From: an uncultured Alphaproteobacteria bacterium
Lineage (GTDB): Bacteria > Pseudomonadota > Alphaproteobacteria > Puniceispirillales > Marisalimonadaceae
Assembly: GCA_937142855.1 (NCBI GenBank)
Contig: CAKZQZ010000089.1
Location: forward strand, 1-34,370
Reading direction: 5' to 3'
DNA: 34,370 bases
Part shown: positions 21,799 to 32,222 of the stretch, one piece after another
Position numbering within the stretch: position 1 is the stretch's first letter
Layout: each line of letters opens with the position of its first letter
Program-made: the position numbers and the translations under genes
The notes under the pieces: generated by a model
Database searches by the model: none
Seen by the model: only the letters and a program-made list of their open reading frames with translations
Told to the model about the DNA's origin: nothing

Positions 21799-23010
21799 AT
21801 GCAATTAAACTTAAATGATATTATAAATGTCCATAAAAAAATATCTGACAATGTAAAATGGACAGAGACTAGTTTTTCAAATTCTATTTCAGAAAAGCTA
21901 GGCGTAGATATTTATTTTAAATTTGAGAATAGACAATTTACTGGTGCTTTTAAAGTTAGAGGGTCATACGCAAAGCTACTTTCTTTTTCTGAATCCGAAA
22001 AAAGGTCTGGGGTAGTTGCTATGTCTGCAGGTAATCATGCTCAAGGTTTAGCTTTTATATCAAAAAAAATGAATATTAAATCCAATATTGTTATGCCTGA
22101 AGGTACACCTTTTACAAAAATAAGAAGAACTAAAAATTTTGGCGGAAACGTTATAATTAAAGGATCAAATTTAGATGCCTCTTATAACCATGTTCAGAGA
22201 CTTATTGAAGATAAAGGTTTCATAGAAGTTCATCCTTATAATGATATAAATGTTATATCAGGACAAGGAACTATATCTTATGAAATGTTATCAGATTGCA
22301 ATGAAATTGATACATTACTTATACCAGTTGGTGGTGGCGGTTTGATAGCAGGTTGTGCATTGGCAGCAAAATCAATGAATAAAAATATTAAAGTTATTGG
22401 TGTCGAGTCTGATTTGTATCCATCCCTTACAAATAAAATGTTTAATAAAAATATGAAGTGCAAGGGTTCTACACTTGCAGAAGGTATAGCTGTGTCCGAA
22501 GTAGGTAATACTCCATTTTCAATTATTAAAGAGCTAGTTGATGATGTTATAACAGTAACCGATAAATCAATAGAAAGAGCAATTGCAATGCTAGCTGAGC
22601 ACGAAAAAACTGTAGTAGAAGGTGCTGGTGCAGTTGGATTAGCTGCAATACTACAAAACAATCAAGTATTCATTGGAAAAAAAATAGGTATAGTAATTTG
22701 TGGTGGCAATATTGACTCTAAAGTTTTGTCTTCAATTTTAATGAGAGACTTAGTTAGGTCTGGGCAAGTTACCACTCTTACTATCACAATGCCTGATAAG
22801 CCAGGTCAACTTCAAATCATATCCAAAATTTGTGCTAATAATGGTGCCAATGTACTTCAAGTTGAGCATAGTAGATTTGCAATGGACTTGTCTGCTAGTT
22901 TAGCAAAATTAAACATTACAGTAGAAACTCAAAATACTGACCATTTAAATAAAATTATAAATGAAATTGAAAGACATGAATTGCCTGTAAATATTGAAGG
23001 TTTGATATAG
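21799..23010 (+). CDS. ilvA: Threonine ammonia-lyase with C-terminal ACT domain
   Basis: A 403-residue PLP enzyme converting threonine to 2-oxobutanoate plus ammonia. The PLP Lys is K52 (GAFKVRGSY), the Asn loop is SAGNHAQG (76-83), and the phosphate-binding glycine loop is GGGGLIAG (178-185). A single ACT domain from about 325 (TLTITMPDKPGQLQ...) gives the 400-aa architecture of the TdcB-plus-ACT class rather than the 510-aa double-ACT biosynthetic IlvA of E. coli. It may serve isoleucine synthesis or threonine catabolism. The gene stands alone and no ilv genes adjoin it. The exact symbol is therefore tentative. Confidence 0.9.
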   Translation: MQLNLNDIINVHKKISDNVKWTETSFSNSISEKLGVDIYFKFENRQFTGAFKVRGSYAKLLSFSESEKRSGVVAMSAGNHAQGLAFISKKMNIKSNIVMPEGTPFTKIRRTKNFGGNVIIKGSNLDASYNHVQRLIEDKGFIEVHPYNDINVISGQGTISYEMLSDCNEIDTLLIPVGGGGLIAGCALAAKSMNKNIKVIGVESDLYPSLTNKMFNKNMKCKGSTLAEGIAVSEVGNTPFSIIKELVDDVITVTDKSIERAIAMLAEHEKTVVEGAGAVGLAAILQNNQVFIGKKIGIVICGGNIDSKVLSSILMRDLVRSGQVTTLTITMPDKPGQLQIISKICANNGANVLQVEHSRFAMDLSASLAKLNITVETQNTDHLNKIINEIERHELPVNIEGLI

Positions 23011-23013
23011 ATT

Positions 23014-24072
23014 TTAATTAACTTTTTTTAATCTAAAACTGACTATTTCATTTGAAGAACCAATTCTTAATCTTGGTCCCCAACAACCAGATCCCGATGA
23101 AACATAAAGATTAGAAAAGTTATTTTTATACAAACCATAAATATATTTAAATTTCAACTTTACTACAAAGTTAAAAGGAAATATTTGTCCATTATGGGTA
23201 TGTCCTGATAGCATTAAATCAATTTTATCCTTTAAACTATCCCATATGTCAGGCTTGTGAGATATAACTATGTTAAATAATTTATCTTTTTTTAAATTAT
23301 TTACATATGAAATTTTATTAATCGGTAATTCTAAATCGTCAATTCCAATCAAATTTATTTTACCAATTTTTTGATTTTTGTTTTTTAATACTTGAATATT
23401 ATATTTTGTTAGTTCTTTAATTTTATCTTTATAACCTCTCAAATAATATTCATGGTTACCATTAACAAAATATATTTTCTTTTTAATAAGATTAAATAAT
23501 TTTAAGTTTTCTAATTTAAATGAACTTGAATCAATTAAATCGCCTCCAATTAAAATAAAATCATATTTAATATTTTCGATACTTTTAAATATTTTTTGAA
23601 TATGTTTTGGGCTATTTGTCCCTAAATGAGCGTCACTAAAAAAAATGATGTTATAATCTTTATCTATTTTGGAAGTGTCTATAGTTATATTTCTAATTGA
23701 TATGCTTTTTGCTTTGAATATCCCGTATAACGTTATGATTATGATTAAAATTAGTGAACTTATACCGATTGAAGTTTCTTCGAAGTATCCAAAATAGTTT
23801 ATTGTAATACTTACAATAACTACGATAAAGCTAATGAAACCAATCCCTAAACCTTCATATACAAAAAGTTTAAGTGGTTTGAAGGTTGTATATGATTTTA
23901 AATAATAAATAATTAACAAATAGAAAAAAATTGTGTTTATAACTGAAATTATTAAAGAAGTTTCTTCTTTGAATATATATTTGTTCAAAATTTCAAAAGG
24001 AAATATATAAAGAAAATAAGTAACAATTATTAGAGTTATTAAGAAAATATACTTAGATATAACGTTTTTCAT
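23014..24072 (-). CDS. Membrane-anchored metallophosphoesterase (YaeI/YkuE-like)
   Basis: A 352-residue protein with about four N-terminal transmembrane helices (residues 8-125) and a calcineurin-type phosphoesterase domain. Metal-binding motifs in order: SDAHLG, GGDLID, GNHEYY, ISHKPD and GHTHNGQIFPF. The layout matches the YaeI/YkuE type, which hydrolyse UDP-sugar or phospholipid phosphodiesters at the membrane; the substrate here is unknown. It begins one base after the photolyase stop, so both share a transcript, and it converges on ilvA with 3 bases between stops. The sequence is extremely rich in Ile and Lys. Confidence 0.86.
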   Translation of the reverse strand: MKNVISKYIFLITLIIVTYFLYIFPFEILNKYIFKEETSLIISVINTIFFYLLIIYYLKSYTTFKPLKLFVYEGLGIGFISFIVVIVSITINYFGYFEETSIGISSLILIIIITLYGIFKAKSISIRNITIDTSKIDKDYNIIFFSDAHLGTNSPKHIQKIFKSIENIKYDFILIGGDLIDSSSFKLENLKLFNLIKKKIYFVNGNHEYYLRGYKDKIKELTKYNIQVLKNKNQKIGKINLIGIDDLELPINKISYVNNLKKDKLFNIVISHKPDIWDSLKDKIDLMLSGHTHNGQIFPFNFVVKLKFKYIYGLYKNNFSNLYVSSGSGCWGPRLRIGSSNEIVSFRLKKVN

Positions 24073-24073
24073 A

Positions 24074-25510
24074 TTAAGATATTTTTAATTTAGCAAATGT
24101 AGAAAGAGCTTTTGCTCTAGAAATTTTAATATCTACAATAGGTTTTGGATACGTTTCTCCGAGTTTAATATTAGATTCTTTTAGAACCTCGTTAGGAGCA
24201 TCCCATGGATTAAATAAAAATTTATTTGGAAGCATGCTAATTTCTGGAATATATCTTCTTGTATAATCTCCATTAGGGTCAAATCTCAAGCCTTGTGTTA
24301 TAGGATTAAAAATCCTAAAATATGGGGCAGCATCTGCACCACAGCCTGCAATCCACTGCCAACCAGCACTATTACTTGCTAAATCAGCATCTACCAGACA
24401 ATCCCAAAACCATTTTTCCCCCTCATGCCAATGTAACAAAAGGTTTTTTACTAAGAATGACCCAACTATCATTCTTAACCTATTATGCATATAGCCGGTT
24501 GACCAAAGTTCTCTCATTCCAGCATCTATTATTGGGTATCCTGTTAGTCCTGATTTCCATGCTTTCAGAAATAATGAATTATTGTCCCAAGAAAAGTTAT
24601 CGAATTTCTTCTGTAAATTTTTCCTTGGCAAATCTGGAAAATAAAAAAGAAGATAATAAGAAAACTCGCGCCATCCCATTTCTGACAAAAATGTATCAGT
24701 ATCTTCAAAATTATTTATCTCCAAATGTTGTAAGTTCGAAATTTTATGCCAAATTGTGTTAGGTGAAATCTCTCCCCAATGTAAATGGGGCGAAAGTCTA
24801 GATACATTTTTTTTATTTGGAAAATTCCGACCTTCTTTATATCCATTTAGTTCAAAACTAATAAATTCTTCTAATCTTTGTTCAGCTGCTTTTTCGCCAA
24901 CATTCCATTTTTTTATTATTTTATTTTTCCAATTATGAGTTGGCAATAAATTTAAACTTTCAATATCTAAGCTTTTAATTTTTTGAAATTCATAATATTG
25001 AATTTTTTGAGGAGCCTTTGTTGGAATTCGAGGTCCTACGGCATTTAAACATCCCCTTCTATAATAAGGAGTAAAAACACGATAAGGTGTTCCATCATTT
25101 TTTAAAACCTCCCAAGGTTCCCACAAAAGTGATCCATTAAAGCTATTTGTTTCAATCCCCTTCAAATTTAAGGTTTCTTTAATTTTTTTATCCCTTTGAA
25201 TAGACCATGGTTCATAAACTCTATTCCAAAATACTTTATTGATTTTCTCTGTTTCACAAATTTCTGAGATGATTTTAAGTGGGTCAGCATTAAAAAAATG
25301 AAGTTTGTTTTTAAATTGCTTATTTAATTTTTCTAATGAATGGTGCAACCAAATCCTGCTAGCGCTGCCTAATTTATGTTCACCTGAATTGATATCATCT
25401 AATATGTAAATAGGGACTATGGCACCGTTATTGACTGCTGCTTTTAGAGCAGGATTATCATGTAATCTAAGATCTTGTCTTATCCAGTAAATGCTTACGT
25501 TTTTATCCAA
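24074..25510 (-). CDS. phrB: Deoxyribodipyrimidine photolyase (class I CPD)
   Basis: A 478-residue photolyase/cryptochrome protein. The N-terminal antenna domain starts WIRQDLRLHDNPAL. The C-terminal FAD domain shows SEMGWREFSYYLL, GYPIIDAGMRELWSTGYMHNR, the DADLASNSAGWQWIAGCG block with the electron-transfer Trp, and FRIFNP...GDYTRRYIPE. It repairs UV-induced cyclobutane pyrimidine dimers using blue light, as expected for a sunlit-water organism. The start is TTG 25510-25508 preceded by AGAGAT. The membrane phosphoesterase gene follows with a one-base gap. Confidence 0.94.
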   Translation of the reverse strand: MDKNVSIYWIRQDLRLHDNPALKAAVNNGAIVPIYILDDINSGEHKLGSASRIWLHHSLEKLNKQFKNKLHFFNADPLKIISEICETEKINKVFWNRVYEPWSIQRDKKIKETLNLKGIETNSFNGSLLWEPWEVLKNDGTPYRVFTPYYRRGCLNAVGPRIPTKAPQKIQYYEFQKIKSLDIESLNLLPTHNWKNKIIKKWNVGEKAAEQRLEEFISFELNGYKEGRNFPNKKNVSRLSPHLHWGEISPNTIWHKISNLQHLEINNFEDTDTFLSEMGWREFSYYLLFYFPDLPRKNLQKKFDNFSWDNNSLFLKAWKSGLTGYPIIDAGMRELWSTGYMHNRLRMIVGSFLVKNLLLHWHEGEKWFWDCLVDADLASNSAGWQWIAGCGADAAPYFRIFNPITQGLRFDPNGDYTRRYIPEISMLPNKFLFNPWDAPNEVLKESNIKLGETYPKPIVDIKISRAKALSTFAKLKIS

Positions 25511-25643
25511 TTTTATCTCTTTTACTAAATTTATAAATTACCCAGTCTGAAAATTACTAAATTAAATATAATAAATACAATTTGAAAGTTTATGCTTGTT
25601 TGATGGTATCTTAAATCATAACTTGTTATTATGGAAATTGTAA

Positions 25644-26816
25644 ATGTCATATAAAAAACCCTATGAAGGTTTAAAAGTTATAGATTTTTCTCAGGGCGTT
25701 GCTGGTCCATATTGTGGGATGCTATTAGCTCAACAGGGTGCAGAGGTTATTAAAGTTGAACCAATGGATGGAGATTGGGCTAGAAACTTAGGCCAAGAAT
25801 ATGGAGAACATTCAGCATTTTCTGTTGCAGCAAATCTAGGAAAAAAAAGTATTGTTATTGACTTAAAAAATCAAAAAAGCTTACAAATCATAGATAAAAT
25901 AATTAAGGATGTTGATGTTTTCATAGAAGGCTTTAGGCCTGGGGTGATTGACAAATTAGGCTTAGGATATGAGAGACTAAAAAAAAATAACCCAAAATTA
26001 ATTTATTTATCAATTTCTGGTTTTGGTCAGAAAGGTCCTATGAGCAAAAAACCTGCAATGGATCCTGTTATCCAAGCTTTTACAGGTTTCATGTCTGAAA
26101 ATAAAGGTCCTGATGATATCCCCCACAGAACACCAGTAATAATGTTTGATATGGCCACAGCCTTGTACGCTATGCAAATTATTTCTGCAACCATATTTGC
26201 TAGAATAAGTGAAAAATTTGGAAAAAAAATAGAAATAAGTTTAATGGAGTCAGCTGCAGCCTTTCAATCTATTAGATTAATGAGTGGCTATATGGAAGGA
26301 CCATATAAGCATGCATCTTCACCTTCAGGAACTTTCAAGACCAAAGATGGTTGGATACAATTAATAGTTGTTAAAAACCATGAGTTTAATAAGTTTTGTG
26401 ATGCAGTAGGTTGGAACAAGTTTAAGGATGATCCACGTTTTTCTTCTAATACAAAAAGGAGAGAGCATGAAAATTTTTTAACTAAAGAAGTGCAGAAACT
26501 ATTTGTTAACAAACCAACGGATTATTGGAAAAATTTACTTGACCAATACCAAGTCCAAAACGAAAAAGTACAATCATATAAAGAGCTTGTCGAAAGCAAT
26601 CAAAGTAAAGAACTTAATTTGATATCTTGGTTAGATCAACCAACGACTGGAAAATTATGGCCAATACCAAACATACCAGGACTTTCTAAATTAATTGAGA
26701 ACGATAGCAACAGCTCAGCTCCAAGTTTGGGACAACACACCAAAGAAATATTACTCAGTCAAGGTTACACTAACGAAGAAATATTAAATTTAAAGATACA
26801 AAAAATTATAGCTTAA
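25644..26816 (+). CDS. CoA-transferase family III (CaiB/BaiF)
   Basis: A 390-residue family III CoA-transferase. The N-terminal GLKVIDFSQGVAGPYCGMLLAQQGAEVIKVEP is diagnostic, and the nucleophilic Asp is D169 (IMFDMATALYA), the same number as in formyl-CoA:oxalate CoA-transferase. It moves CoA between carboxylic acids without a ping-pong intermediate release. Donor and acceptor cannot be inferred: there is no carnitine, oxalate or bile-acid gene nearby. It opens the plus-strand catabolic-looking stretch but converges on a tiny minus-strand ORF. Confidence 0.92.
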   Translation: MSYKKPYEGLKVIDFSQGVAGPYCGMLLAQQGAEVIKVEPMDGDWARNLGQEYGEHSAFSVAANLGKKSIVIDLKNQKSLQIIDKIIKDVDVFIEGFRPGVIDKLGLGYERLKKNNPKLIYLSISGFGQKGPMSKKPAMDPVIQAFTGFMSENKGPDDIPHRTPVIMFDMATALYAMQIISATIFARISEKFGKKIEISLMESAAAFQSIRLMSGYMEGPYKHASSPSGTFKTKDGWIQLIVVKNHEFNKFCDAVGWNKFKDDPRFSSNTKRREHENFLTKEVQKLFVNKPTDYWKNLLDQYQVQNEKVQSYKELVESNQSKELNLISWLDQPTTGKLWPIPNIPGLSKLIENDSNSSAPSLGQHTKEILLSQGYTNEEILNLKIQKIIA

Positions 26817-26817
26817 T

Positions 26818-26922
26818 CTATAAAATCCCAGTAATTGTAAAAAGTAAAGGAATGAATATTAATATAGCTAATATTACTTCCCCTTTTAAATTTTCTGTAA
26901 ATGTATACTGATCTTTACTCAT
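26818..26922 (-). CDS. Tiny membrane protein ORF, 34 aa
   Basis: ATG 26922 preceded by a near-perfect AGGAGGAA Shine-Dalgarno 5-6 bases upstream, ending at TAG 26820-26818. The peptide has a short polar N-terminus (MSKDQYTFTENLKGE) and one hydrophobic helix (VILAILIFIPLLFTITGIL) up to the last residue. This is a tail-anchored, single-pass pattern. Its stop is one base from the CoA-transferase stop. The very strong ribosome-binding site in an AT-rich region is the main evidence. The family is not recognised; small subunits of respiratory or transport complexes often look like this. Confidence 0.6.
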   Translation of the reverse strand: MSKDQYTFTENLKGEVILAILIFIPLLFTITGIL

Positions 26923-27017
26923 ATTTATTCCTCCTAAATAAACCATATTAATTTTTAAATAGAATTCAAGTATTTTTAATCCTATAAATAAGAATATTTG
27001 GAATAAAGGAAATTATT

Positions 27018-27140
27018 TTGACTTTTATTTTTGGAATAATATTAGCTGCACTAGTATTTTTTTTCTTTGACTACATTCAGGCTTTTCTTGTTTCTACAGG
27101 CCTCAGAGATCAGTTGGTAATATGGTTGCAGTCTTGGTAA
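27018..27140 (+). CDS. Tiny membrane protein ORF, 40 aa
   Basis: TTG 27018 preceded by AAAGGAAA (27005-27012), ending at TAA 27138-27140. The product begins MTFIFGIILAALVFFFFDY and continues IQAFLVSTGLRDQLVIWLQSW: one transmembrane helix, then a short amphipathic segment rich in aromatic and hydrophobic residues. It is divergent from the 34-aa ORF with 95 bases between, and lies 92 bases before the GMC oxidoreductase. Start-signal quality and composition support translation, but the TTG start and size leave uncertainty. No family recognised. Confidence 0.5.
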   Translation: MTFIFGIILAALVFFFFDYIQAFLVSTGLRDQLVIWLQSW

Positions 27141-27177
27141 TAATTATAAGTGATTTTTAGAGATACGTTTTTTATAT

Positions 27178-27206
27178 TTGAATTAAAAAGACGATAAACA
27201 TATTAT
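27178..27206 (+). promoter_or_regulatory. Candidate promoter of the GMC oxidoreductase gene
   Basis: TTGAAT (27178-27183) and TATTAT (27201-27206) are separated by exactly 17 bases. Transcription would begin near 27213, leaving a 20-base leader with GGAA before ATG 27233. The match is 4 of 6 plus 5 of 6 to the sigma-70 consensus, which can arise by chance in such AT-rich DNA. Confidence 0.35.
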
Positions 27207-27232
27207 AAAATTTTAAATTATCGGAAATTGAA

Positions 27233-28873
27233 ATGAGTAATAATTTTGACTACATAATAGTAGGGGCAGGTTCTTCTGGCTGTGTTTTGGCTAATAGACT
27301 TAGTGCTAATCCTAAAAATTCTGTTTGCTTGCTTGAAGCTGGACCTCCAGACTGGAACCCTTTCATTCATATACCGGCTGGTTTTATCAAAACATTAACT
27401 AACCCAAGTGTTAACTGGCTTTTTAAATCTGAGCCTAGTTGGGGTACAGCAGGGAGAGTTATTGATATTCCAAGAGGTAAAACACTTGGTGGATCAAGCT
27501 CTATTAATGGAATGGTTTTTAATAGAGGGCAAAATTTGGATTTTGATGTTTGGGCACAAAAAGGAAATAAAGGTTGGAGCTACTCTGATTTATTACCATA
27601 TTTTAAGAGATATGAAAATCGTATTGGAGAATATGATGAAAAATATAGGGGTGGCCTTGGAGAGTTGCCAATAACCGATTTAGAGTATCGTGACCCTCTT
27701 TGTGAAGCCTTTATAAAAGGTGCAATAGAAGAAGGAATACCTCTTAATAAGGATTATAATGGAGAAACCCAAGAAGGTGTTTCGTACGTGCAAAGAACAA
27801 CAAAAGGAAGATTCAGGGTAAGTGCAGCCAGAGCTTTTTTAAATCCAGTAAAAAATAGAAAAAATTTAAAAATCATTACTAACGCATTTGTTACAAAAGT
27901 TATAGTTGATAATAAAACTGCTACAGGAATAGAGTATTTTAAGGGTGGGAGATCTGGAAAAAAAATTACTTTAATTGCTAATAAAGAGGTTATTCTATCT
28001 TCAGGCGTTATTAAATCTCCTCATATTCTTCATCTTTCAGGAATTGGACCAGCTAAACATTTAAATGATTTAGGGATAAAAGTAGTGCATGATTTAAAGG
28101 GTGTTGGAATGAATCTAAGAGATCATTTTGCTCCTCGAATGACAGCAAGAGTTAAAAATATTCAAACTATAAATGAAAGAGCAAGGGGACTTAGATTATT
28201 AAAAGAAATTGGGAAATATTTCCTAGGCAAACAATCAATTGTCAACTTAAGCCCAACTTTAGTTTATTGTTTTTGGCATTCAGATGAAGCTGTAAGAAAT
28301 CATGATTTACAAATGACATTTACCCCAGCTTCCTACAAAGAGGGTGTACAATCTACACTTGACACTGAACCAGGATTTACAGTAGCAGCGTGGCAACAAA
28401 GACCTGAGTCACTTGGATGGGTAAAAATTAAAAGTGATGATCCTTTTGTCGCCCCAGAAATTCAACCCAACTACCTTGATGCTGAAGAAGATAAAAAGGT
28501 GGTTGTTGCTGGTTTGAAATTATCAAGAAGGTTAATGCATTCAAAAGCTTTATCAAAATATTTTGATTATGAAGTTTATCCTGGTTTAGACTATCAATCT
28601 GATGATGAACTTTTACAAATAGCCAGAGAAAGGGGTACTACTACATATCATCAAATGGGGACATGCAGAATGGGTCCTAAGAGTGACCCTACAGCAGTAG
28701 TTGATAATAATTTAAAAGTTTATGGTATCCAGAATTTAAGAGTTATTGACGCTTCAATCATGCCAACTATGTTATCAGCTAATTTACATTCAGGTGCAAC
28801 TTTGATAGGTGAAAAGGGCTCATCTCTTGTTTTAGGAGAGGAACCTATGGAAAAAGCAAATTTAAATTATTAA
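27233..28873 (+). CDS. GMC-family FAD oxidoreductase (alcohol dehydrogenase type)
   Basis: A 546-residue glucose-methanol-choline oxidoreductase. The FAD Rossmann motif is VGAGSSGCVLANRLS near the N-terminus, followed by LEAG and the GMC signature region GKTLGGSSSINGM. The active-site His is H473 (TYHQMGTCRMG). The second active-site position, aligned by eye with the Asn of choline dehydrogenases, is H519 (ANLHSGATLIGEKGS), making a His-His pair like aryl-alcohol oxidase. An alcohol other than choline is therefore a better guess, although such genes are often labelled betA. It is followed 34 bases later by the YghU-type GST, probably co-transcribed. Confidence 0.9.
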   Translation: MSNNFDYIIVGAGSSGCVLANRLSANPKNSVCLLEAGPPDWNPFIHIPAGFIKTLTNPSVNWLFKSEPSWGTAGRVIDIPRGKTLGGSSSINGMVFNRGQNLDFDVWAQKGNKGWSYSDLLPYFKRYENRIGEYDEKYRGGLGELPITDLEYRDPLCEAFIKGAIEEGIPLNKDYNGETQEGVSYVQRTTKGRFRVSAARAFLNPVKNRKNLKIITNAFVTKVIVDNKTATGIEYFKGGRSGKKITLIANKEVILSSGVIKSPHILHLSGIGPAKHLNDLGIKVVHDLKGVGMNLRDHFAPRMTARVKNIQTINERARGLRLLKEIGKYFLGKQSIVNLSPTLVYCFWHSDEAVRNHDLQMTFTPASYKEGVQSTLDTEPGFTVAAWQQRPESLGWVKIKSDDPFVAPEIQPNYLDAEEDKKVVVAGLKLSRRLMHSKALSKYFDYEVYPGLDYQSDDELLQIARERGTTTYHQMGTCRMGPKSDPTAVVDNNLKVYGIQNLRVIDASIMPTMLSANLHSGATLIGEKGSSLVLGEEPMEKANLNY

Positions 28874-28907
28874 TTAAGTAAAACAAGAAACAAATGAGGT
28901 ACATAAA

Positions 28908-29777
28908 TTGTCAGAACTAGGAGATTATAATCCCCCCAATAAATGGGTGTGGGATAAAGAAAATGGTGGGAAGTTTGCTAACATTAATAGACCTATTTCA
29001 GGCTCTACCCATCAAAAAGAATTACCGTTAGGTAAACATCCTTTCCAATTATATTCTCAAGGTACTCCGAATGGAATAAAAATAACTATTATGCTTGAGG
29101 AATTATTAGAGTTGGGCATAAAAGACGCTGAGTATGACGCATGGTTAATTAGAATTGGGAAAGGAGAACAGTTTAGTTCAGGATTTGTAGAAATAAATCC
29201 AAATTCCAAAATTCCAAGTCTGATAGATAATTCTGGAAACAAATCAATTAAAGTATTTGAATCAGGTTCTATTTTAATTTATTTAGCTGATAAATTTCAA
29301 AATTTTATCCCAAAATCTTTTGATGATAGAACAGAATGCCTTAATTGGCTGTTTTGGCAAATGGCTAGTGCCCCATATCTTGGTGGTGGATTTGGTCATT
29401 TTTATGCATATGCCCCCAAAAAATTTGAATATCCAATTGACCGTTTTTCTATGGAAGTTAAAAGACAACTAGATGTTTTGGATAAACTTCTATCAGATAA
29501 AACTTACATTTGTAACGAAGAGTATACAATTGCCGACATTGCAATCTGGTCATGGTATGGAGCTTTGGTTTTAGGGAGATTATATGGAGCAGAAGAGTTT
29601 TTAGATGTTAAATCATATAAAAACGTCGTTAAGTGGGCAAATTTAATTAATGAAAGACCTGCTGTTAAACGAGGAAGAATAGTCAATAAAATATCAGGAA
29701 ATTTAGATGAGCAACTCCATGAAAGGCATGATTCTAGCGATTTTAATGAAAAAACAGAAGATAAATTAGTGAAATAA
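28908..29777 (+). CDS. yghU: Glutathione S-transferase family protein, YghU type
   Basis: A 289-residue Nu-class GST closely resembling E. coli YghU along its whole length: W-x-W-D near the N-terminus, FANINRPISGSTHQKELP, GTPNGIKITIMLEELLELG, WLIRIGKGEQFSSGFVEINPNSKIP, FESGSILIYLA, NWLFWQMASAPYLGGGFGHFY, ERPAVKRGRIVN and the LHERHDSSDF tail. YghU binds two glutathiones and shows disulfide reductase and peroxidase activity. The start is TTG 28908 with GAGGT 7 bases upstream. It converges on the SDR gene with 3 bases between stops. Confidence 0.93.
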   Translation: MSELGDYNPPNKWVWDKENGGKFANINRPISGSTHQKELPLGKHPFQLYSQGTPNGIKITIMLEELLELGIKDAEYDAWLIRIGKGEQFSSGFVEINPNSKIPSLIDNSGNKSIKVFESGSILIYLADKFQNFIPKSFDDRTECLNWLFWQMASAPYLGGGFGHFYAYAPKKFEYPIDRFSMEVKRQLDVLDKLLSDKTYICNEEYTIADIAIWSWYGALVLGRLYGAEEFLDVKSYKNVVKWANLINERPAVKRGRIVNKISGNLDEQLHERHDSSDFNEKTEDKLVK

Positions 29778-29780
29778 TTT

Positions 29781-30539
29781 TTATAATTTTTCTATTCCTA
29801 GTCCAGCTATATATCTTCTATGCCATGTAGGACTAATTGTTATCTGATTAATACATACATGTTTTGGCATTTGAGACAGAAAAGCTATTGTTTCACCTAG
29901 ATCATCAGGCTGAAGCATTTTATTTTTTTGATCCAAAGTAAGTTTTTTAGGTCTTTTTTCTAAAATTGGCGTTGCAACCTCTCCAGGGCATAATGCGCAT
30001 GCTCTAATACCAACATTACAATATTTCATGTTAATTGTTTCAGTCATTGCATTTAGTGCATGTTTTGAAGATGTATATGAAACACCTGACAATAGACTTA
30101 CATGGTTTCCTGACCATGATGATACGTTTATAATTAGTCCATCCATTTTTTTTTTCATAATGGGTATAACTGACCTGCAGCAATAAAATAAACCGTTAAT
30201 ATTAGTTTGAATCACTTCATCCCAATCATTTTCATCAATTATGTCCCAGTCTCTATTCTCAATATTCATACCCGCACAATTTACTAAAATATCTATACTT
30301 TTAAATTCTCTTTCTATTTCTAGAGTAACTTCTTTAACCGATGATTTTTTTGTTATATCACATATTTTTATAAAGTTTTCATTGGTACATTTTAATGAAG
30401 TTTCTTTTAAGTTTTTGAGATTTCTTCCAGAAAGAATAACTTTCATTCCCATTTCTGAAAGCTTTATTGCTGCATTTTGACCAATGCCAGAACCTGCGCC
30501 TGTTACCCAAGCTATTTTGTTTTTTAAATTTCTTTTCAT
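29781..30539 (-). CDS. SDR family oxidoreductase
   Basis: A 252-residue classical SDR: TGAGSGIG (13-20), NCAG (87-90, NNAG variant), S140/S141, Y155 and K159 (SYTSSKHAL), PGEV at the catalytic-loop end. The C-terminus (QITISPTWHRRYIAG) departs from the usual VDGG ending and resembles SDRs of the NADP(+)-dependent serine/3-hydroxy acid (YdfG-like) type. AAAGG sits before ATG 30539. It is the second of a minus-strand TauD, SDR, SDR series with gaps of 18 and 39 bases. Confidence 0.87.
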   Translation of the reverse strand: MKRNLKNKIAWVTGAGSGIGQNAAIKLSEMGMKVILSGRNLKNLKETSLKCTNENFIKICDITKKSSVKEVTLEIEREFKSIDILVNCAGMNIENRDWDIIDENDWDEVIQTNINGLFYCCRSVIPIMKKKMDGLIINVSSWSGNHVSLLSGVSYTSSKHALNAMTETINMKYCNVGIRACALCPGEVATPILEKRPKKLTLDQKNKMLQPDDLGETIAFLSQMPKHVCINQITISPTWHRRYIAGLGIEKL

Positions 30540-30578
30540 AAAAAACCTTTTCTATTTTGAGTGTTAAATAATAAAAAA

Positions 30579-31382
30579 CTATTGAGCAGTAAGACCGCCA
30601 TCTACAACCAAACTTGATCCAGTCATAAAACTTGAGTTGTCAGAAGACAAAAATAATATTGTGTTTGCTACTTCTTGAGATGTACCTAGACGACCTAATG
30701 GAGTTTGCGTAATTCCTGTTAAGTGAGATTCTTTTAAAGACATATTAGGGTTTTGGTTTATTCTTGCTTCTGCAACTTGTTTTCCCATATCTGTTTCAAT
30801 TATTCCTGGGTGAACTTGATTAATTCTAATAGGATATTTTTTCTTACCAAAATATATTGCCATTGACTTAGTAAATGTCGTTATTCCTCCCTTTGTCATA
30901 GAATATAATGGATCTAATTGTGAGCCAACTAAACCTGCAACAGAACTTAAGTTGACTATGGAACTTCCAAATTCAGATTTTTCACCAGCTTTTTTTAAAA
31001 AGGGCATTAGATGTTTAGTTCCTAAAAAGACCCCGGTCAAATTAATGGATATCAATTTTTGGTATTCTGAAATTGTAACATCTGTTATTTCTTTACCCAA
31101 CCATACTCCGGCGTTATTGATTAAAATATCAACGGTTTTATTATTCTTCTCAAGAGAATTAGAAAAGTTAATCCACTCGTCCTCTTTAGCTACATTTATC
31201 TCAACAAAGCTCGCTTCATTACCATGGCAAGAAACCTCCTTTATTGTTTTTAAACCTTCTTTTTTGTTTGTGTCTAAGATAAAAATATTAGCTCCAGCCT
31301 GAGCTAAAGCTAAACAAACACTTTTACCAATTCCTTTTGAACCTCCGGTGACAATTGCATTTTTTCCGCTTAAAATTCTCAA
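30579..31382 (-). CDS. SDR family oxidoreductase
   Basis: A 267-residue classical SDR: TGGSKGIG (12-19), D37 at the end of strand 2 (suggesting NAD), NNAG (89-92), S146/S147, Y160 and K164 (YSMTKGG), PG after strand 6 and the terminal TGSSLVVDGG. It starts at TTG 31382 with AAAGGAAA 9 bases upstream. Resembles cyclopentanol dehydrogenase/3-oxoacyl-reductase-like SDRs, but the substrate is open. It lies 18 bases after the TauD-type gene and 39 before another SDR, likely one operon. Confidence 0.87.
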   Translation of the reverse strand: MRILSGKNAIVTGGSKGIGKSVCLALAQAGANIFILDTNKKEGLKTIKEVSCHGNEASFVEINVAKEDEWINFSNSLEKNNKTVDILINNAGVWLGKEITDVTISEYQKLISINLTGVFLGTKHLMPFLKKAGEKSEFGSSIVNLSSVAGLVGSQLDPLYSMTKGGITTFTKSMAIYFGKKKYPIRINQVHPGIIETDMGKQVAEARINQNPNMSLKESHLTGITQTPLGRLGTSQEVANTILFLSSDNSSFMTGSSLVVDGGLTAQ

Positions 31383-31400
31383 ATTTAATTTCCTTTATAT

Positions 31401-32222
31401 TTAGCTTTGTATCATAATTCTATATAAATAACGTTCTTCTTGCATATCATAATCACCATTTGCTTTATGCATCAAAATTCTGTTATCCCAAATAACAAAG
31501 TCACCATCTTTCCATATATGTCTGTATTCATTCTTAGGTTTAGATACGTAATGCATTAACTCATCAAGTAACGTTATAGTTTCTTTGGTAGAAAGTCCGA
31601 TTATTTTTTCTATTCGAATGGGGTTTATATAAAGGCAAATTTTTTTATTTTCTGGATGAACTTTTATAAGTGGATGAATTACTTCAGTTTGATTTTTTAT
31701 TTCTTTAGTTAAGGACATTAACTTTCTTTTGCTTAGTGAACTTTGATACACATGAAGTGCCTCTAAACTTTTGATCTTATTTTTTAAATTTAAAGGTAAT
31801 TCATTATAAACTAAATGCATATTAACAAATTGGGTATCCCCACCAATAGATGGCAGTAATTTAGCATGAAGAATTGTTGCCTTCGGTGGCCTTAAGTCAT
31901 TACTATGATCTGTATGGTAGCCTTCACCTGGAATGTAAGGTTTACCATCTTCAAACTTATCCTTATTAGAAATATAATGGACTAAATTGTTTTCTTTCAG
32001 AGCAAATTTTTTGTTATGCTGATTAAATATTTTTCCAAAAATTTTGGCACTATTGTAAAATTCATTTGGGTTTAAATTTTGGTTTCTAATGACCAAAACT
32101 GAATATTTAGAAAAAGTTTGATTAAGTTCTCTTATAATTGTCTTGTCGGGAATAGATTTAAGATCAATATCTAAAATTTCTGCGCCAGTATGCTCTGATA
32201 ATGGTTTTAAAGTAAAATGCAT
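31401..32222 (-). CDS. TauD/TfdA-family Fe(II)/2-oxoglutarate dioxygenase
   Basis: A 273-residue dioxygenase. Iron ligands are H103-x-D105 (GYHTDHSND) and distal H252 (ILMHKANGD), with R264 (EERYLYRIM) placed to bind 2-oxoglutarate. The N-terminal GAEILDIDL and the GGDTQFVNM block are typical of TauD, TfdA and related enzymes. Substrates in the family include taurine, alkyl sulfates, phenoxyacetates and amino acid derivatives. No taurine transporter is nearby. It is the first gene of the minus-strand operon with two SDRs, and is divergent from the cupin gene. Confidence 0.88.
   Translation of the reverse strand: MHFTLKPLSEHTGAEILDIDLKSIPDKTIIRELNQTFSKYSVLVIRNQNLNPNEFYNSAKIFGKIFNQHNKKFALKENNLVHYISNKDKFEDGKPYIPGEGYHTDHSNDLRPPKATILHAKLLPSIGGDTQFVNMHLVYNELPLNLKNKIKSLEALHVYQSSLSKRKLMSLTKEIKNQTEVIHPLIKVHPENKKICLYINPIRIEKIIGLSTKETITLLDELMHYVSKPKNEYRHIWKDGDFVIWDNRILMHKANGDYDMQEERYLYRIMIQS

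Follow-up and report, generated by a model that had tools for sequence, protein, structure and literature searches.

Conserved, unannotated small membrane proteins are a recognized kind of gene product, as set out in two reports (PMC11364881 and, for the Pro-SMP finder, PMC10903887). The proteins of the smORF catalogue and the Pro-SMP set share several features with a pair of short open reading frames (ORFs) lying on a 34,370-nucleotide stretch of alphaproteobacterial DNA (the whole stretch analyzed; hereafter, the window), namely, fewer than 50 codons, one predicted membrane helix, conservation, and no known domain. The pair differs from the catalogue smORF proteins in comprising two separate families, in belonging to the SAR116 lineage, and in being encoded back to back. 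Both families may already be listed in smORF catalogues as anonymous clusters. Among the titles and opening lines of abstracts covered by the literature search, there was no paper on SAR116 small proteins and nothing on this pair.

A second described system is CydX, the small subunit of cytochrome bd oxidase, which is 37 aa long in Escherichia coli and carries the motif YxxWxxGx15[ED] (PMC4325964). Its likeness to our pair lies in its similar length and single helix, and it is an accessory subunit with few conserved residues. However, the CydX motif was found in 0 of 27 aligned plus-strand proteins and 0 of 23 aligned minus-strand proteins, and the pair is flanked by CoA-transferase, GMC oxidoreductase, and YghU-type genes, not by cydAB. 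With the motif missing and no cydAB neighbors, identity with CydX was rejected. By eye, the minus-strand protein also resembles in layout COX4_pro_2 (PF07835), subunit IV of the bacterial aa3 cytochrome oxidase; common to both are a short polar N terminus with an F...K stretch and one C-terminal helix. PF07835 matched two places in the same genome at E up to 1, neither of them in the window (C13:19618-19713 being over the cut-off), and this identity was likewise rejected.

Results

Locus layout and composition

The window is contig C89 of a 2.32-Mb genome (G000) and has an overall GC content of 29.6%. Named relatives carrying the locus are SAR116 alphaproteobacteria, e.g., AAA536-K22 and many AG- single cells. 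Taken with the GC content, these relatives suggest that the genome itself falls within that group. The relevant features are as follows:

25644..26816, plus strand: CoA-transferase family III gene (PF02515, E 5.2e-98), flanking
26818..26922, minus strand: gene for a 34-aa predicted small membrane protein (MSKDQYTFTENLKGEVILAILIFIPLLFTITGIL), convergent with the CoA-transferase gene
26923..27017, no strand: divergent spacer of 95 bp, presumed shared control region
26930..26935, minus strand: Shine–Dalgarno site AGGAGG of the minus gene, as read from the sequence
26963..26979, plus strand: conserved central element AATTCAAGTATTTTTAA, from spacer conservation
27018..27140, plus strand: gene for a 40-aa predicted small membrane protein, TTG start (MTFIFGIILAALVFFFFDYIQAFLVSTGLRDQLVIWLQSW)
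27233..28873, plus strand: GMC oxidoreductase gene (PF00732 and PF05199), flanking
28908..29777, plus strand: glutathione-dependent disulfide-bond oxidoreductase gene (NF008731, 501.8 bits, cut-off 325), which we take to be of the YghU type

The CoA-transferase frame ends at 26816 and the GMC frame begins at 27233, so that the space between them, 26817-27232, is exactly the 416 bp given by an earlier, sequence-only reading of this DNA. Among the eight gaps between main genes at 21799-32222, listed by hand from ORFs of at least 100 aa (3, 1, 133, 416, 34, 3, 39, and 18 bp), it is the largest. For the GMC gene, the top NCBIfam match was a choline dehydrogenase model, under its cut-off. Within the gap, GC content is 33.3% in the plus ORF and 23.8% in the minus ORF, compared to 16.8% in their intervening spacer and 16.3% in the stretch that separates the plus ORF from the GMC gene. 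For this reason, the composition that the sequence-only reading had called coding-like suits the plus ORF better than the minus ORF.

Two small ORFs with predicted membrane helices

The minus ORF opens with an ATG at 26922 and runs for 34 codons to a stop ending at 26818, with AGGAGG seven bases upstream of the ATG. The ORF lister begins this frame at an upstream ATG, 8 codons earlier (42 aa); since the homologues start at the inner position (27 with ATG and 2 with GTG of 29, window included), the inner ATG is taken as the conserved start. The plus ORF opens with a TTG at 27018, preceded by the Shine–Dalgarno-like AAAGGAAA, and has 40 codons, with its stop at 27138-27140. Over 30 plus homologues, the start codon is ATG in 27 and GTG in 2, the TTG occurring only in the window. 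Both ORFs, each behind a Shine–Dalgarno-like site, are as the sequence-only reading had described them. A strict Shine–Dalgarno core, defined as GGAG, GAGG, or AGGA at -16 to -4, was present in 26 of 29 minus homologues and in only 13 of 30 plus homologues; shuffled spacers contained it in 27 of 2,900 cases.

Among relatives, the minus protein is 34 aa long, with one case of 32 aa (L061), and six residues (M1, F8, E15, P25, L26, and F28) are invariant over 23 aligned rows. Its hydropathy peaks at 3.1 over 15 residues, and AlphaFold2 modeled one helix at 12-33 with a mean pLDDT of 79.8, which suggests a polar N terminus of ~11 residues followed by a single helix reaching the C terminus. The plus protein is 40 or 41 aa long in relatives (row L057 of alignment A3, which begins a codon too soon and lacks the last codon, was kept in later analyses), with a hydropathy peak of 3.0 over 15 residues. 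AlphaFold2 modeled three consecutive helices (2-15, 17-27, and 29-39; mean pLDDT 94.1), and 10 residues (G6, I7, F16, I20, G28, R30, D31, L33, W36, and L37) are invariant over 27 rows, so that the tail carries the invariant signature G-x-R-D-x-L-x-x-W-L. The model points to an N-terminal helix of hydrophobic character, behind which comes a helical tail that is more polar. Of the one transmembrane helix that had been assigned to each protein, the minus helix stands (12-33), while the plus protein is better described as one hydrophobic helix plus a more polar helical tail. Judging from hydropathy and the AlphaFold2 models, both proteins are very likely located in the membrane.

Conservation among close relatives

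Homologue searches covered 198 genomes. For the minus ORF, 43 genomes gave a match at E up to 1; the 31 that reached 2.3e-5 or better were counted, corresponding to 29 of the 40 genomes of the window's genus and both g3 genomes (G041 and G044). For the plus ORF, 63 genomes matched and 36 were counted at 2.2e-7 or better: the same 29 genus genomes and the same two g3 genomes at 5.5e-13 or better, with two of the three g4 genomes and three genomes of family f4 added at the wider threshold. Within the genus, therefore, both ORFs occur in the same 29 genomes (G000 included), and neither was found in the same 11 (G002, G006, G011, G013, G015, G017, G019, G021, G031, G033, and G039); weak plus matches in G015 (E 0.08) and G017 (E 0.19) were uncounted. 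A contig end interrupts the minus gene of G004, and locus L114 begins inside its own minus gene.

Of 33 named loci, 28 lie in genera g1 and g3, where the gene order is photolyase, CoA-transferase, minus gene, plus gene, GMC, and YghU-type gene, wherever the contigs reach far enough to show it. At L097 (NZHB01000063.1), the pair is intact with no CoA-transferase match at E 1e-3, and 361 bp separate the photolyase and minus genes.

In the 11 pair-less genomes, the best CoA-transferase match was only 33–34% identical, and on this basis the CoA-transferase orthologue was judged not found. G002, G013, and G015 have a GMC orthologue (83–86%) that is cut or truncated, and the best GMC match in the other eight was 45–47%. 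Given the missing CoA-transferase orthologues and the state of the GMC matches, absence of the pair may reflect incomplete assembly in most of these 11 genomes. In G013, the GMC orthologue (L164, G013:C1:358830-362582) keeps only residues 297-546, its 5' half having been replaced; upstream of this remnant, the opposite strand carries an unrelated frame, and the pair was not found in this genome. The truncation may be a real deletion or a misassembly, and unless it is the latter, the pair may be dispensable there.

Both frames are under purifying selection

In relatives, both frames are conserved together with their starts and stops, each ORF being shorter than 100 codons. No frame-breaking indel was seen among the homologues, whose lengths vary by whole codons only. 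Using 28 unique plus and 28 minus sequences, we obtained a pN/pS of 0.247 for the plus ORF and 0.296 for the minus ORF, compared to 0.38–3.26 for the shifted and reverse frames. These counts omit L061 (the 32-aa minus protein), L056 (minus gene cut by a contig end), and G005, in which both frames are intact, though its plus locus was absent from the output of the plus homologue search. Most differences in both ORFs fall in third codon positions. When alignment columns were shuffled, 0 of 300 shuffles gave a pN/pS as low as observed, for either ORF, and 0 of 300 were free of stops. Since synonymous sites are near saturation (pS 0.56–0.58), the true ratios are probably lower than those computed.

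AT-rich sequence yields many short ORFs, and the two frames might on that account be chance products of an AT-rich gap. This is ruled out by conservation, by the third-position pattern, and by the purifying selection that acts on both frames, leaving it a negligible probability. The central proposal of the sequence-only reading was that these are two real genes for tiny membrane proteins, to be checked by conservation and selection among homologues. It is borne out by frames kept in relatives, indels that are all multiples of three, and pN/pS values (0.247 plus and 0.296 minus) indicative of purifying selection. Together, these sequence comparisons argue that both ORFs are almost certainly genuine protein-coding genes.

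A conserved spacer between the two genes

All 29 of the 29 parsed pairs are divergent, with 93–109 bp between the starts. TTCAAG, flanked by T-rich stretches, is central in 28 of the 29 spacers, and ATTCAAGT is found in 26 of 29. Across the genome, the pattern AATTCAAGTNNTTTTWA has one exact match, the one in this spacer, and two further places at one mismatch. The conservation and central position of this element suggest that the two genes are probably under joint divergent control from the spacer. A promoter consensus scan of the region found 5 sites against a shuffle mean of 4.1, no better than shuffles, so the case for shared control is carried by conservation; promoter and terminator scans yielded nothing informative in this AT-rich DNA, and the positions of the best hexamers differ between genomes. 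No Rfam match was obtained at E up to 1 in 26700-27350, and a known structured RNA in the gap was rejected.

Further downstream, a promoter-like TTGAAT-17-TATTAT is present at window positions 27178-27206, between the plus gene and GMC, and on visual inspection of the aligned relatives parts of this stretch seem conserved. On these grounds, the GMC gene may have its own promoter there, in a region where the scan overall was no better than shuffles.

The plus family extends beyond the pair

Outside the conserved gene order, the plus gene was found in G042 and G047 of genus g4 (62% identity), 18–19 bp before a YghU-type gene, and in G106, G109, and G113 of family f4, another family of the order (40–48% identity). 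In f4, the plus genes converge on a cNMP-binding gene or on what looks like the remnant of one. The apparent remnant is seen beside the plus homologue at L067:6611-6898; by eye, the cNMP-binding gene is intact in L068 and L069. There was no convincing plus match in 13 genomes of genus g2, the matches in G054 and G055 (E 0.04 and 0.05) lying in a frame with a stop. The minus profile found 0 of 26 further genomes, including G042, G047, G106, G109, and G113, an empty answer that shows little by itself; the profile does find G000. The minus gene was seen beside the plus gene only in genera g1 and g3. Because it is more widely spread, the plus gene is probably the older of the two; it keeps no single fixed neighbor.

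A divergent second minus-like copy, 34–45% identical, occurs in G000, G001, G016, G028, and G041 (E 4.3e-4 to 6.7e-3 in a single-sequence search). In G000 this copy is at L062:1047-1151 (G000:C122; MNNKKYYFADSLFSEILLSVLMGMPLIFCATGLY), 88 bp after an 82-aa frame for an NrtS-type nitrate/nitrite transporter (711-959; NF038050). No such neighbor was seen by eye among ORFs of at least 70 aa in L063, L065, or L066. Minus-like places in G156 and G014 were dropped because of broken frames.

In a class-level search of 385 genomes at E up to 0.01, the plus profile (A1) gave 7 matches and the minus profile (A2) gave 3, G000 included. The best other match of each profile was opened and judged spurious, one being out of frame in a longer ORF (G417) and the other lying inside a 134-aa frame (G173), so that nothing credible was present among the matches opened.

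The plus tail resembles a stretch of ABC exporters in family f4 (L072:2962-4803 in G112, and L073 in G087). Over 198 genomes, this resemblance has E 9e-4 and worse per genome, and the plus profile scored 17.7 and 16.1 bits on the best stretch of the exporters, compared to at most 7.7 in 200 shuffles. The likeness is not significant after its choice as the top match among many genomes, and we treat it as a lead only.

Database searches

Neither protein had a convincing match in Pfam, NCBIfam, PHROGs, PADLOC, or PDB sequences; Pfam returned 0 families for the window's minus protein, and Foldseek of the plus model against the PDB returned 0 matches. Against PDB sequences, the plus profile A1 matched eight potassium-channel sequences (E 0.35–0.53) and the minus profile A2 matched nothing. 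Since short hydrophobic sequences give noise, we dismissed the weak library matches of the plus protein (coronavirus NS7B, 0.094; SK channel, 0.097; DUF7859, 0.11; phrog_3045, 0.48) and of the minus protein (DUF3930, E 0.066). A scan of IMG/VR with the plus profile A1 gave 17 pattern matches, none of them confirmed, and phage records gave no match for the plus protein and one for the minus protein at E = 10; a phage origin was accordingly rejected.

Discussion

Our best reading, which we hold to have an even chance of being correct, is that the pair encodes two lineage-restricted small inner-membrane proteins that share divergent control and serve as accessory or regulatory proteins for larger membrane proteins. 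Both genes would be transcribed outward from their common spacer, about 96 bp long and conserved at its center, and each protein would insert in the inner membrane via its hydrophobic helix. Each helix might then pack against a larger membrane protein, be it a transporter or a complex of the respiratory or redox type, and the small protein would act as its accessory or regulatory subunit, much as CydX serves cytochrome bd oxidase. Such a mode of action has in itself about an equal chance of being right or wrong. The presence of a short hydrophobic helix is a poor guide to function. All that was seen accords with the earlier suggestion that the two proteins could act as regulators or as small subunits in membrane complexes; however, no partner protein for either was found in this comparative analysis, and GMC proved an inconstant neighbor of the plus gene.

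The co-occurrence of both genes in the same genomes, their near-constant divergent spacing in g1 and g3, and the shared spacer core would also fit a single two-part small membrane complex formed by the products of the divergent pair. However, co-occurrence is weak evidence for a complex because neighboring genes tend in any case to be lost, or overlooked, as a unit, and the plus gene is present in five genomes (G042, G047, G106, G109, and G113) that gave no match to the minus profile; we consider such a complex unlikely. A more specific version, in which the pair is a dedicated, co-regulated micro-complex of the SAR116 lineage tuning one membrane transporter or redox enzyme, seems rather improbable. 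Here, an older, movable plus peptide would have gained a divergently expressed minus partner, whose family has a second copy elsewhere in the genome, and tuning would occur through helix packing.

A role for the plus protein in one pathway with the YghU-type oxidoreductase, in redox or thiol stress, would accord with the position of that gene, which comes directly after the plus gene in G042 and G047 and is set back by one gene in g1 and g3, but in f4 the YghU-type matches nearby are only 22–23% identical in two of three loci, with none in the third, and we regard this role, too, as rather improbable. It is improbable that the plus protein anchors the downstream GMC oxidoreductase to the membrane or serves as an accessory subunit of that enzyme. 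At the g1 and g3 loci, the plus gene immediately precedes GMC and is co-oriented with it, and in f4, at L069/L122, a 38%-identical GMC gene lies a few kilobases from the plus gene. Nevertheless, g4 GMC orthologues (70% in G045 and 67% in G047) have no adjacent plus gene, the plus gene of G042 and G047 precedes the YghU-type gene instead, and in f4 it adjoins the cNMP-binding gene. Small size and a single hydrophobic helix would also be expected of toxins of a type I toxin–antitoxin system, which one or both proteins might be; the genes are, however, syntenic and slowly evolving, with no PADLOC match and no Rfam match in 26700-27350, making this very improbable.

Both small families of this SAR116 lineage are solid as genes and, to all appearances, unnamed. 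The genomes of streamlined ocean bacteria are regarded as holding little spare DNA, and annotation often overlooks genes under about 50 codons. Since the largest "empty" gap of this neighborhood holds two conserved protein genes, some of the intergenic DNA left in genomes of this type may represent uncounted proteome. Both families offer concrete targets for testing in an ocean lineage that is largely uncultured.
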